This document shows positions 13,445 through 31,439 of a DNA stretch of 43,989 nt, in pieces. The position numbers were made by a program, and so were the translations under genes. Under the pieces are notes generated by a model. The model was given only the letters and a program-made list of their open reading frames with translations. It was not told the DNA's origin and did no database searches. Within the stretch, counting starts at the first letter, position 1. The number at the start of each line of letters is the position of its first letter. The DNA comes from Sedimenticola sp. (GTDB lineage: Bacteria; Pseudomonadota; Gammaproteobacteria; Chromatiales; Chromatiaceae): contig JALVTT010000046.1 of NCBI GenBank assembly GCA_027024025.1, positions 1-43,989 on the forward strand, written 5' to 3'.

Positions 13445-14944
13445 ATGACGAAACGGAATCTGCCAACCCTCGGAAAGACCCTGGCCGGCGGGCTGATGCT
13501 GGCCCTGATGCCGGGCCTGGCCCTGGCCTCGGGCGAAGCCCAGATGGACTTTACCGACACCTGGATGGGCTATCTGAGCGTGGCCCTGTTCGTGCTTGCC
13601 TATGCCCTGGTGATCGGCGAGGAGGCGCTGCATCTGCGCAAGTCCAAGCCGGTGATCGTGGCCGCGGGCGTCATCTGGGCCCTGGTGGCCATTGTCTATA
13701 TGCAACACGGCGACACCACCACCGCCGAGGAGGCGGTGCGTCACAACATCCTGGAGTTCGGCGAGCTGTTCCTGTTCCTGCTGGCGGCGATGACCTATAT
13801 CAACACGATGGAAGAGCGCGGGGTGTTCGACAGCCTGCGCATCTGGCTGGTCTCGCGCGGTTTTTCATTGCGCACCATCTACTGGCTGACCGGTCTGCTG
13901 GCCTTCTTCATCTCGCCGGTGGCCGACAACCTGACCACCGCCCTGCTGATGGCCACGGTGGCCATGGCGGTGGGCGGCGACAACCGCCGCTTCGTGGTGG
14001 TGGCCTGCATCAATATCGTGGTCGCGGCCAATGCCGGCGGGGCCTTCTCGCCCTTCGGCGACATCACCACCCTGATGGTCTGGCAAAAGGGGGTGATCGC
14101 CTTCCACGAGTTCTTCGACCTGTTCGTGCCCTCGGTGATCAACTGGCTGGTGCCGGCGGTGATCATGTCCTTCGTGGTGTCCGGCGAGAAGCCCGACCCC
14201 ATCGAGGAAGGCGAGCCGCCGCTCAAGCACGGCGCCCTGGCGGTGGTCGGGCTGTTCATCCTGACCATCGTGATGGCGGTCTCGGCGCACAACTTCCTGC
14301 ACATGCCGCCGGTGCTGGGCATGATGACCGGCCTGGGCCTGCTCAAGTTCTACGGCTATTACCTCAAACGGCGCGGCGGCACCATCGAGGACCGCGAGCA
14401 CCTGGGCGAACAGGGCATCTCGGTGGAGGGCGAGATCGCGGCCGCGGCCCCGCACGGCGCGGGCGATGCCCATTTCAACATCTTCAAGTCCATGGAACGC
14501 GCCGAATGGGACACCCTGATGTTCTTCTACGGCATCATCCTGTGCGTGGGCGGCCTGGGCACCCTGGGCTATCTGACCCTGGTCTCCGAGCTGATGTACA
14601 CCGACCTGGGCCCGACCAATGCCAACATCCTGGTCGGCGTGCTCTCGTCCATCGTGGACAACATCCCGGTGATGTTCGCGGTGCTGTCCATGTACCCGGA
14701 GATGTCGCACGGCCAGTGGATGCTGGTCACCATGACCGCGGGCGTGGGCGGCTCGCTGCTGTCCATCGGCTCGGCGGCCGGGGTGGCGGTGATGGGCCAG
14801 GCGCGCGGCGTCTATACCTTCTTCGCCCATCTGAAATGGACCTGGGCCATCGCCCTGGGCTACGCCGCCAGCATCTGGGCGCACTTCCTGATCAACGAGC
14901 CGCTGTTCCATATCGCCGCGGGCGCGGCGGGCGGGCATGGCTGA
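13445..14944 (+). CDS. nhaD: Na+/H+ antiporter NhaD
   Basis: 499-residue polytopic membrane protein of the NhaD branch of the ArsB/NhaD ion-transporter superfamily, with about 12 helices. It exports Na+ (and Li+) in exchange for H+ and is typical of marine, halophilic or alkaliphilic bacteria. Supporting segments are [40 protein letters not shown] and [19 protein letters not shown], with the acidic and polar membrane residues of the family. The N terminus looks like a signal peptide (ends ALASGEA). ATG at 13445 has GAGGAG ten bases upstream; an ATG at 13379 is open but lacks a binding site. Monocistronic; convergent with the radical SAM gene five bp downstream. Confidence 0.93.
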
Positions 14945-14949
14945 CGGGT

Positions 14950-16047
14950 TCAGCTCGACATGTGTACCACCTGCCGGCGCGGTCCCCAGCCCCCGGGATG
15001 GGCCTCGAACACCCCGGCGATGGGATGCCCGCAGTGGGCGCAGCGGCCCCGGGCATCCAGTCGCCATTCACCCAGCTGATACCAGTCGCGTTCGATGACC
15101 CGGCCGCCGCAGCCCGGACACCAGGTGCTCTGCCCCGCCGGATCGTGGACATTGCCGGTATAGGCGTAATGCACGCCGTTGCGCAGGGCGATTTCGCGCG
15201 CCCGCGCCAGGGTCCCGGGCGGGGTGGCGGGATGGTCCAGCATCTTCCAGTCGGGATGGAAGGCGGTGAAGTGCATGGGCACGTCCGGGCCCAGGTGCTC
15301 CACCACCCAGCGGGTCATGGCGTCCAGTTCCTCCTCGCTGTCGTTCTCTCCGGGGATCAGCAGGGTGGTCAGCTCGAACCAGACATCGGTCTCGTGCCTG
15401 AGATACAGCAGGGTGTCGAGCACCGGCTGCAGATGGCCGCCGCAGATCTTGTGATAGAAGCGGTCGCTGAAGGCCTTGAGGTCCACATTGGCGGCATCCA
15501 TGTGGGCGAAGAAGTGCTCGCGCGCGCCGGGCGAGATGTAGCCCGCGGTCACCGCGACGGTGCGGATGTCCCGGGCATGGCAGGCCCTGGCCACGTCCAC
15601 CGCGTATTCGAGGAAGATCACCGGATCGTTGTAGGTGAAGGCCACGCTGCGGCTGCCGCTCTCCTGCGCGGCCCGGGCGATGGCCTCGGGCGAGGCCGCG
15701 TCGGCCAGGGTGTCCATCTCGCGTGACTTGCTCATGTCCCAGTTCTGGCAGAAACGGCAGGACAGGTTGCAGCCCGCGGTGCCGAAGGAAAACACCGGCG
15801 TGCCGGGCAGAAAATGGTTGAGCGGCTTCTTCTCTATGGGGTCGATGACAAAGCCGCTGGAACGCCCATAGGTGGTCAGCACCACCTTGTCGTCGAGGCG
15901 CCCGCGCACGAAGCACAGCCCGCGCTGCCCCTCGTGCAGCCGGCACGCCCGCGGGCAGACGTCGCATTGCACCCGACCGTCGTCCAGACGGTGCCAGAAG
16001 CGCGTCTCGACCACGCTGTCATCGCGCTGGATCGGGAAATCACTCAT
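14950..16047 (-). CDS. amrS: AmmeMemoRadiSam system radical SAM enzyme (AmrS)
   Basis: 365 residues. The radical SAM cluster motif is C93-N-L-S-C97-R-F-C100. Upstream lies an N-terminal Cys set (C28, C31, C35, C45), and the C terminus carries a zinc-ribbon-like pair (C310-x2-C313 and C336-x2-C339). Order and length match the pyruvate formate-lyase-activating-like AmrS family that co-occurs with Memo- and AMMECR1-like proteins. The reaction is not established. ATG at 16047 is chosen because similarity begins there; the frame extends to 16116. It is divergent from the Memo-like gene across 62 bp, so the two probably share a control region. Confidence 0.92.
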   Translation of the reverse strand: MSDFPIQRDDSVVETRFWHRLDDGRVQCDVCPRACRLHEGQRGLCFVRGRLDDKVVLTTYGRSSGFVIDPIEKKPLNHFLPGTPVFSFGTAGCNLSCRFCQNWDMSKSREMDTLADAASPEAIARAAQESGSRSVAFTYNDPVIFLEYAVDVARACHARDIRTVAVTAGYISPGAREHFFAHMDAANVDLKAFSDRFYHKICGGHLQPVLDTLLYLRHETDVWFELTTLLIPGENDSEEELDAMTRWVVEHLGPDVPMHFTAFHPDWKMLDHPATPPGTLARAREIALRNGVHYAYTGNVHDPAGQSTWCPGCGGRVIERDWYQLGEWRLDARGRCAHCGHPIAGVFEAHPGGWGPRRQVVHMSS

Positions 16048-16109
16048 GATTGAAACCTGCCAAAAAGAACCTATGTTCCTTTTATGGATGCCATTTGGAG
16101 GATTACAAG

Positions 16110-16895
16110 ATGGCACAGGTACAGATGCCCAATGTCGCCGGCACCTTCTATCCGGCCGATCCCGGGGCCCTGGGCGCGGAGGTGGACGGCTTTCTGGCGC
16201 AGGCCCGGCCCTATCCCGGACCGCCGCCCAAGGCCGTAATCGCGCCGCACGCCGGCTATGTCTATTCCGGGCCCGTGGCGGCCAATGCCTATGCGGCCCT
16301 GCGTGACGCGACCGACCGGATCGAGCGGGTGGTGGTGCTGGCGCCTTCGCACCGGGTCGCCTTCCGCGGCATCGCCGCCTCCAGCGCGGAACGCTTCCGC
16401 ACCCCGTTGGGCGACATCCCGGTGGATACCGGCGCGGTCGAGCAGGCGACGCGCCTGCCCCAGGTCGGCTATCTGGATCAGGCCTTCCAGGGCGAGCACG
16501 CGCTGGAGGTGCAACTGCCCTTTCTGCAACGGGTACTGCCGCGCTTCCGCCTGGTGCCCTTCGTGGTCGGCGAGACCAAGCCCGGCGAGGTCGCCCAGCT
16601 GATCGACCTGCTGTGGGGCGGCGAGGAGACCCTGTTCGTGATCAGCTCGGATCTCAGCCACTATCACGACTATGCCACGGCGGTGCAGCGCGACCGCGAC
16701 ACCAGCCGCCACATCGAGGCCCTGGACATCCGCCTGGACCACGGCGACGCCTGCGGGCGCAATCCCATCCAGGGCCTGCTGGTGGCCGCGCGCGAACATG
16801 GCCTGCGGGCCGAGACGCGCGACCTGCGCAACTCCGGCGACACCGCCGGTCCCAAGGATCGTGTCGTGGGGTACGGGGCCTATGTCTTCCACTGA
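16110..16895 (+). CDS. amrB: AmmeMemoRadiSam system protein B (Memo-like)
   Basis: 261-residue homologue of the Memo family, related to extradiol dioxygenases. The candidate metal ligands H47 (APHAGYVYSG), H81 (APSHR) and C215 (DACGRNPIQG) are all in place, matching the two His and one Cys of human MEMO1. The SSDLSHYHDY segment is also typical. ATG at 16110 has GGAGG eight bases upstream, deciding against the in-frame ATG at 16050. It overlaps the AMMECR1-like gene by 14 bases. Metal binding is likely; a catalytic activity is not proven for the family. Confidence 0.92.
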   Translation: MAQVQMPNVAGTFYPADPGALGAEVDGFLAQARPYPGPPPKAVIAPHAGYVYSGPVAANAYAALRDATDRIERVVVLAPSHRVAFRGIAASSAERFRTPLGDIPVDTGAVEQATRLPQVGYLDQAFQGEHALEVQLPFLQRVLPRFRLVPFVVGETKPGEVAQLIDLLWGGEETLFVISSDLSHYHDYATAVQRDRDTSRHIEALDIRLDHGDACGRNPIQGLLVAAREHGLRAETRDLRNSGDTAGPKDRVVGYGAYVFH

Positions 16896-17460
16896 GTACG
16901 ACCGCGAGGAACGGACGCTGATGCTGGATGTGGCGCGGCGCGCCATCGCTCACGGCCTGCGCCGCGGCGCGCCGCCGGCGCTGGACCCCGCTGACTATCC
17001 CGAACATCTGCGCGCACAGCGCGCCTGCTTCGTCACCCTCAACCGCGACGGGCGGCTGCGTGGCTGCATCGGCCACCTCGAGCCGGTCCAGCCGCTGATC
17101 GCCGACGTGTCCGAAAACGCCTTCGCCGCCGCCTTCCGCGATCCGCGCTTTCCGCCCCTGGGCGAGTCCGAGTCCGCCGGGCTGGAGATCCACATCTCGG
17201 TGCTGAGCGAGCCCGAGCCCCTGCCCTTCCGGGACGAACAGGACCTGCTGGCCAGGCTGCATCCCGGCGAGGACGGCCTGATCCTGCAGGGCCCCGGCGG
17301 CCGGCGCGGCACCTTCCTGCCCTCGGTCTGGGAACAGCTGCCGCAACCGCGTGAATTCCTGGCCCAGCTGCGCCTGAAGGCCGGCCTGCCCGCCGACTTT
17401 CCCCTGAGCCAGATCCGGATCTGGCGCTACACCACCGAGTCCTTTGCCGGCGATTACTGA
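16882..17460 (+). CDS. amrA: AmmeMemoRadiSam system protein A (AMMECR1-like)
   Basis: 192-residue AMMECR1-domain protein. The hallmark LRGCIGHL motif is at 59-66, preceded by ACFVTLNRDG and followed by AAFRDPRFPPL, ISVLSEPEPL and GRRGTFLPSVWEQL. The conserved Cys in LRGCIG suggests a catalytic or modified thiol, but no reaction is known. The start at 16882 lies within the end of the Memo-like gene, implying coupled translation. Its 3' end overlaps the end of lpxB by seven bases (17454-17460) on the opposite strand. Confidence 0.9.
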   Translation: MSSTEYDREERTLMLDVARRAIAHGLRRGAPPALDPADYPEHLRAQRACFVTLNRDGRLRGCIGHLEPVQPLIADVSENAFAAAFRDPRFPPLGESESAGLEIHISVLSEPEPLPFRDEQDLLARLHPGEDGLILQGPGGRRGTFLPSVWEQLPQPREFLAQLRLKAGLPADFPLSQIRIWRYTTESFAGDY

Positions 17461-31300: not shown

Positions 31301-31439
31301 GTGTTTCTCCAGTTCGGGTTAAGCCTCCACGCACCCCCCTGGCCCACCCGTTTCGGGCACCCAGACCAGGCAGTTGCGGTACGTGTGTGTATTTCGCTCC
31401 GATCGAAAGTCAAGGCGGCATTGCCGCGGAGCGGCGCGT

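Follow-up and report, generated by a model that had tools for sequence, protein, structure and literature searches.

A stretch of 43,989 nucleotides from Sedimenticola sp. (contig JALVTT010000046.1, hereafter the window) holds an intact, ordinary amrS-amrB-amrA set of the AmmeMemoRadiSam system, comprising a radical S-adenosylmethionine (SAM) enzyme (amrS), a Memo-like protein (amrB) and an AMMECR1-like protein (amrA). The system is already named and curated by NCBI (TIGR04337, TIGR04336 and TIGR04335, respectively); all three window proteins score above the curated cut-offs and far above chance, and the window locus adds one more member, with a short divergent gap, an amrB/amrA overlap and no essential difference found. 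Two broader results come from its relatives. First, in the sampled bacteria the trio behaves as one set that is kept, lost, fused or duplicated together with few exceptions. This shared pattern, which extends to gene gain, strongly supports the view that the three products act in one process. Second, related genomes of one bacterial phylum, the second of the two sampled, hold further copies, predicted to be exported as a whole, in which amrB and amrA are joined in a single protein that opens with a hydrophobic segment, while amrS starts with a twin-arginine (Tat) signal.

Co-occurrence and fusion of the three genes

The initial annotation held that the three families co-occur across bacteria and archaea, and set co-occurrence profiling beforehand as the test by which a shared pathway could be refuted. 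Among 185 genomes spread evenly over the Gammaproteobacteria, each searched for the three genes, 89 have all three, 90 have none and 6 have part of the set; singly, amrB occurs in 94, amrA in 93 and window-type amrS in 91 (pairwise Fisher p, 5e-45 to 3e-53). The second phylum sampled is that of the genome G185 ('Acidobacteria bacterium isolate M0029', the source of locus L037); here 75 of 119 genomes have all three genes, 34 none and 10 a partial set (3e-20 to 9e-25). Co-occurrence is thus far above chance in both samples and the claim holds for the bacteria sampled, whereas archaea were met solely among named control genomes, of which Methanosarcina acetivorans and Sulfolobus acidocaldarius are listed for amrA and amrB.

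Genome membership in these counts was assigned by hand. In the Gammaproteobacteria, amrS matches in G056, G088 and G116 were left out as paralogues or divergent homologues, though they exceed the NCBI cut-off; including them gives 90 complete, 88 empty and 7 partial genomes. In the second phylum, nine genomes with weak amrB matches above NCBI's low cut-off were treated likewise (G233, G248, G259, G261, G271, G283, G294, G295 and G305), and their inclusion gives 78, 28 and 13. Fragments of amrS in G299 and of amrB in G260 were counted as present, as were the intein-split amrS genes of G219, G247 and G274; an amrS fragment in G028 and a sub-cut-off amrA in G252 were counted as absent.

The association does not depend on linkage. 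All 20 genomes, taken from named records, whose amrS locus showed no amrB nearby carry amrB elsewhere; with four genomes that have amrB near amrS added, amrB is found in 24 of 24, and amrA over the cut-off in 20, as a sub-cut-off fragment in one and not at all in three. Fusion of amrB and amrA in one reading frame occurs in 7 of the 185 Gammaproteobacteria (G028, G042, G057, G091, G119, G133 and G183) and in at least 43 of the 119 second-phylum genomes. Where amrS and amrB appear in the same locus they are divergent in 82 of 85 cases, the window's own included. No further conserved neighbour of the window-type trio was found in more than 8 of 80 loci, in stretches of up to 17 kb. The earlier proposal that the three families belong to one pathway is therefore supported by co-occurrence, by fusions of amrB with amrA and by a second, apparently exported whole set, and its description as a modification or redox pathway would be compatible with the data.

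Conserved residues and folds

The residues singled out in the initial annotation are all present: C93, C97 and C100 plus additional four-cysteine sets near both ends of amrS, H47, H81 and C215 in amrB, and LRGCIG at residues 59-64 of amrA. The amrS protein matches TIGR04337 at 658.8 bits (NCBIfam cut-off 220) and PF04055 at 69.3 bits (cut-off 29.5), with the radical SAM motif in the expected fold. Its secondary profile matches place it closest to glycyl-radical activases, and it misses the PFLA family cut-off (56.7 versus 231.75 bits). All 11 cluster cysteines are invariant in 41 aligned rows. The N-terminal four-cysteine knuckle is a probable metal or auxiliary cluster site, and the C-terminal ribbon lies outside the matched part of most paralogues of ~35% identity, which align to profile positions ~2-287. 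One such paralogue, beside yggX or yggX-like genes in L114, L115, L118 and L119, is cytosolic, ~35% identical and aligned only as far as profile position ~287. A more divergent homologue (34% identity) in L121 and L122 clusters with genes that by eye resemble indolepyruvate oxidoreductase and cystathionine synthase, and the radical SAM genes of L187, L188 and L189 have intein-like inserts that end right before the third cysteine of CxxxCxxC.

In a structure search that compared the whole AlphaFold model of amrS (predicted local distance difference test score, pLDDT, 87.5), and so did not search the N-terminal knuckle by itself, radical SAM enzymes head the best 50 matches. The nearest solved fold is the pyruvate formate-lyase activating enzyme (PFL-AE) with bound peptide substrate (3cb8; Z 24.0, root-mean-square deviation (rmsd) 2.3, 224 residues aligned), followed by NifB, RlmN, QueE and viperin at Z 16-18. 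The radical SAM core is common to amrS and PFL-AE, whereas the N-terminal knuckle and the C-terminal ribbon are amrS's own.

The amrB protein matches TIGR04336 (248.4 bits, cut-off 26; NCBIfam) and PF01875 (169.9 bits, cut-off 27), has the His/His/Cys ligands of the Memo family, and misses the 'MEMO1 family protein' equivalog PRK00782 (149.8 versus 295). A phmmer alignment with human MEMO1 (7kq8; E 1.7e-24) covers amrB residues 9-188; it spans both histidines and stops short of C215, the sole cysteine of the window protein, whose probable pairing with MEMO1 Cys244 is based on the CGRxPI context of the human sequence. H130, D181 and H184 are also invariant in the 33 aligned rows. MEMO1 binds Fe(II) via H49, H81 and C244, and its fold and iron site resemble those of LigB-type extradiol dioxygenases, in which the third ligand is Glu rather than the Cys of Memo (PMC11081632). 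In amrB the LigB-type His-His-Glu triad is absent, with Cys215 at the presumed Cys244 position in 33 of 33 rows. Thus amrB retains His/His/Cys at the iron-ligand positions of MEMO1 and, unlike MEMO1, is bacterial and encoded next to amrS. Memo homologues occur in archaea, bacteria and eukaryotes (PMC7694686). Separately, Memo paralogues of ~413-464 residues in L132, L133, L134, L136 and L137 have, by eye, an extra N-terminal PqqD/RRE-like domain of ~90 residues; fusions of RRE with Memo are mentioned in PMC12710340.

The amrA protein matches TIGR04335 (200.1 bits, cut-off 99; NCBIfam) and PF01871 (163.6 bits, cut-off 25) and carries the LRGCIG motif of AMMECR1, a family that, as Memo does, spans all three domains of life. 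Its model (pLDDT 95.2) has the same fold, over almost full length, as PH0010 (1vaj; Z 23.7, rmsd 1.8, 186 aligned), MM0484 (1zq7; Z 20.0, rmsd 3.6, 185 aligned) and ST0229 (1wsc; Z 19.1, rmsd 4.5, 191 aligned), all deposited as hypothetical or function-unknown proteins. Other folds were rejected, the next best match (Z 5.7 over 62 residues) giving no sign of kinship. As far as these models reach, neither the amrS nor the amrA matches point to a substrate. One locus (L128, G046:C2) has two tandem amrA-like genes after amrB, scoring 154.3 and 68.2 bits.

A sister set predicted to be exported

The window amrS begins MSDFPIQ, with neither a twin-arginine nor a hydrophobic segment, and is by this criterion of the cytosolic kind. 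To call the other kind we used a regular expression of our own, which requires a twin-arginine pattern and, after it, a hydrophobic stretch, limited to amrS proteins that read CxxxCxxC[QDE]N, by which L187-L189 and L241 fall out. Among low-identity amrS proteins it was positive in 23 of 26 that adjoin an amrB-amrA fusion (shuffled expectation 1.0) and in 12 of 48 with no fusion in the fetched stretch (0.3). It was positive in none of the 131 copies at least 60% identical to the window's (0.8), a figure that includes duplicates (e.g. L037 and L144) and is not a count of distinct genes. The fusion partners follow the same division. A signal-like segment is present in 22 of 25 fusions next to a Tat-type amrS (against a high shuffled expectation of 6.2); elsewhere it is absent from all 8 window-type fusions and from all 37 other unfused amrB, and present in 1 of the 85 unfused amrB of window type.

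How loci were chosen bears on these counts. L170-L189 were taken because their reading frames were long or split, a choice biased towards N-terminal extensions, and L233-L259 as amrS away from a fusion. L220-L232 were selected purely for adjoining a fusion; 10 of the 11 scored (L220-L230) pass the strict Tat test and the eleventh, L226, does so by eye, while L231 and L232 (truncated amrS) are unscored. The signals of L138 and L226, which fail the strict window of the test, were added by eye for the fusion-signal, residue and tree analyses only. L139 pairs an exported-looking fusion with an amrS that has no Tat signal.

A Tat signal as a mere effect of divergence is rejected, because non-Tat amrS at 36-43% identity exist in the same genomes (Tat-type and non-Tat amrS occur together in at least 21) and because the split also follows partner type and tree position. 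In a tree of 96 amrS sequences, 34 of 37 exported rows fall in one supported clade (99/92) and three lie outside it, and the window-type rows form a separate clade (98/90). The export label must change three times on this tree, of which the starred branches force at least two, and a single origin of export is not shown by these sequences. A TatC match was found in 35 of 36 genomes checked, the one without being G185, where the exported form was first seen; its contig may be misplaced, and the case rests on the other genomes.

The predicted exported proteins retain the residues that mark the cytosolic ones. All 11 amrS cysteines are kept in 37 of 37 rows (C93, C97 and C100 were also a selection rule). 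Of 27 amrB rows, all keep H47 and H81, and 26 keep C215. In amrA, C62 is kept in 27 of 27, and one of the 27 has Cys at the G61 position. In 11 exported amrS proteins, which make up exactly one clade (100/100), a CXXCH motif and a later His follow the Tat signal and precede the N-terminal knuckle, an arrangement that resembles c-type haem sites. Chance is ruled out as the source of this motif by its presence in 11 of 26 amrS beside a fusion versus none of the 131 window-type copies and none of the 48 low-identity ones without a fusion. The cytochrome c assembly family PF01578, found in all 11 haem-motif genomes, does not discriminate because 35 of 36 genomes have it.

Exported-type loci also have recurrent neighbours. 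Of 40 such loci (L261-L300, which overlap the operons of L138, L161-L186 and L220-L232 and are not independent of them), 18 have a DUF362 protein (PF04015; X), which in 11 of the 18 opens, by eye, with a twin-arginine pair, and 19 have a polytopic spermidine-synthase-domain protein (PF01564; Y). One or both are present in 27 and the fusion (BA) stands alone in 11; the orders seen include BA-X-amrS (7), X-amrS-Y (7) and amrS-BA-Y (6). Neither neighbour appears in control loci (0 of 27, 0 of 30 and 0 of 80). The flanks of these controls, those of the same phylum included, are short: at most about 1.5 kb in L190-L219 and L233-L259, and as much as 8 kb in L032-L111.

Proposed function and its alternatives

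The literature searched, which mostly excluded subscription journals, yielded names for the trio and no biochemical function. Our preferred reading, to which we assign a probability of roughly 0.45, is that amrS acts as a PflA-type enzyme whose radical activates a protein or membrane-lipid substrate on an amrA-amrB complex, with the iron site of amrB completing or controlling the redox step. In this mechanism, amrS would generate a 5'-deoxyadenosyl radical, which would activate a carbon of the substrate while the complex holds it; amrA would supply the RGCIG cleft and amrB a His2Cys Fe(II) site. We prefer a protein or membrane substrate to nucleic acid on two grounds: whole-set export is predicted for paralogues that keep the same catalytic residues, and the exported set often adjoins a membrane or DUF362 protein. 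The argument presumes related chemistry in paralogues that share those residues.

We also entertain, tentatively and at somewhat less than even odds, the idea that AmmeMemoRadiSam works in two compartments, with an exported unit doing radical SAM chemistry outside the cytoplasm and the window trio as the interior version. A literature search from which subscription journals were mostly absent turned up no paper describing an exported radical SAM enzyme. For such an enzyme, the CXXCH haem of the one clade could be the point of electron entry, and SAM could be carried inside the folded amrS or handled by the neighbouring membrane protein; alternatively, amrS may be limited to a single turnover. 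On this view, the window's trio would carry out such chemistry in the cytosol, with a protein or membrane component as its substrate.

Several observations weigh against these proposals. The Tat and signal calls come from our own regular-expression and hydropathy tests rather than from SignalP. We know of no SAM pool outside the cytoplasm, and exported amrS may lack ordinary radical SAM catalysis or may differ in substrate from the cytosolic type. Partial sets also exist. In the Gammaproteobacteria, G008, G028, G098 and G116 have only amrB and amrA, G123 only amrS, and G167 amrS and amrB without amrA. Reported completeness is 75% for G008 and 99% for G098 and G167; the amrS matches in G028 and G123 are fragments, and G116 holds just a divergent homologue. 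In the second phylum, five genomes have amrS and amrB without amrA over the cut-off, four have amrS and amrA without a strong amrB, and one has amrS alone. Control lists give Haloferax volcanii for amrA and not amrB, and Thermus composti for amrB and not amrA. Finally, MEMO1 showed no dioxygenase activity on the substrates tried (PMC11081632).

Metal handling is the most probable of four alternatives, and still an unlikely one. Here amrB would store or deliver Fe(II) or Cu(I), and amrA and amrS would serve in metal-centre repair or sensing within a metal or oxidative-stress system. MEMO1 binds both metals and affects iron homeostasis (PMC11081632, PMC11918410), but these iron data come from human cells. 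The separate amrS paralogue described above adjoins yggX (PF04362, Fe(2+) trafficking) in L114, the only locus in which that identity was profile-scanned, and lies near yggX-like and mutY-like genes, named by eye, in L115, L118 and L119; it is no evidence for the trio, however, because it aligns without the C-terminal ribbon and occurs without amrA and amrB (G056 and G088).

Still less probable is modification of a nucleic-acid base or nucleotide, for example at a tRNA position, with amrA as the nucleotide-binding part. Burroughs et al. (2019) reportedly describe Memo-AMMECR1-radical SAM contexts and are said to suggest links to nucleotide-base and isoprenoid modification. That study is cited in PMC7694686 and PMC7159879. 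Structural matches of amrS include two radical SAM enzymes that act on RNA, RlmN (Z up to 17.1) and TYW1 (Z up to 15.8), and a table in PMC6393860 links the archaeal AMMECR1 family to arCOG04290, PIN and Zn-ribbon domains. By contrast, the predicted destination of the exported paralogues, which keep the catalytic residues, is one where no tRNA would be expected, and in 80 window-type loci gene clusters other than the trio recur in at most 8.

We regard as improbable a third alternative, in which amrS is an activase that places a glycyl radical on amrA at G61 or G64, with C62 as the thiyl site, making amrA a miniature glycyl-radical enzyme. The kinship of amrS with glycyl-radical activases, by fold and by secondary profile matches, speaks for this idea, as do G61, C62 and G64, invariant in 37 of 37 amrA. 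But residues 58-64 are modelled as a strand with no exposed loop, Cys replaces G61 in one exported protein, amrS misses the PFLA cut-off, and H. volcanii, an aerobe, is listed for amrA without amrB. Chance adjacency of three functionally unrelated genes, for which the part-sets of some genomes could be cited, is scarcely credible and already refuted at the level of co-occurrence, which persists where the genes are unlinked and is joined by fusions and by duplication as a set.

The window locus and its relatives

The placement given in the initial annotation, with a divergent gap between amrS and amrB and a 14-base overlap of amrB with amrA (16882-16895), is borne out by the coordinates (Table 1). 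Its description of a clean minimal unit lacking other local genes fails. The convergent nhaD stops at 14944, which leaves 5 bp to the end of amrS, and lpxB, convergent with amrA, overlaps its end by 7 bp (17454-17460). Neither looks tied to the trio by function: across 80 related loci, gene clusters other than the trio recur in at most 8. The window's genome gave one amrS match.

Table 1. Coordinates of the trio and its conserved sites in the window, with the loci of the predicted exported sets
Feature	Position	Strand	Remarks
amrS (AmmeMemoRadiSam radical SAM enzyme; rS)	14950..16047	-	365 aa, ATG at 16047
amrS C-terminal CPxC...CxxC ribbon (C310, C313, C336, C339)	15031..15120	-	invariant 41/41
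Radical SAM CxxxCxxC (C93, C97, C100)	15748..15771	-	invariant 41/41
amrS N-terminal four-Cys knuckle (C28, C31, C35, C45)	15913..15966	-	invariant in 41 relatives and in 96-row alignment
amrS/amrB divergent intergenic region	16048..16109	.	62 bp
amrB (Memo-like protein; B)	16110..16895	+	261 aa
amrB His47 codon	16248..16250	+	equivalent of MEMO1 His49 (iron ligand); invariant 33/33
amrB His81 codon	16350..16352	+	equivalent of MEMO1 His81 (iron ligand); invariant 33/33
amrB Cys215 codon	16752..16754	+	probable equivalent of MEMO1 Cys244 (iron ligand); invariant 33/33
amrA (AMMECR1-like protein; A)	16882..17460	+	192 aa
LRGCIG motif of amrA (residues 59-64)	17056..17073	+	L59, G61, C62 and G64 invariant 37/37
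Predicted exported sets	L138, L161-L186, L220-L232, L261-L300		Tat-signal amrS plus signal-peptide Memo-AMMECR1 fusion

A candidate regulatory palindrome in the divergent gap, imperfect and centred around TATG, was rejected because even L032, an 85%-identical relative, does not share it, and by eye no common motif was found across 80 amrS/amrB divergent gaps. The sole Rfam match in the window, distant from the trio, is a t44 RNA (31318-31407, minus strand, 63.7 bits), an element typically upstream of rpsB; a tRNA scan of the window found none.

Elsewhere, a figure legend about Acidihalobacter genomes gives the trio by name (PMC9062700), and Ideonella dechloratans has genes annotated as amrB and amrS. 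There, on plasmid NZ_CP088082.1 (L260), amrB encodes 464 residues, long enough for an amrB-amrA fusion, and the two genes lie ~2 kb from arsenic-resistance genes.

Significance

The lasting value of the comparison lies in the exported sister set, a variant that comes from related genomes and not from the window. It would offer a handle that cytosolic copies do not give, namely study away from the cytoplasm with a narrower range of substrates, and it brings two candidate partners, the DUF362 protein and the membrane spermidine-synthase-like protein. More broadly, if it is true that a radical SAM enzyme works outside the cytoplasm, its supply of SAM and its source of electrons would pose a new problem in enzymology.

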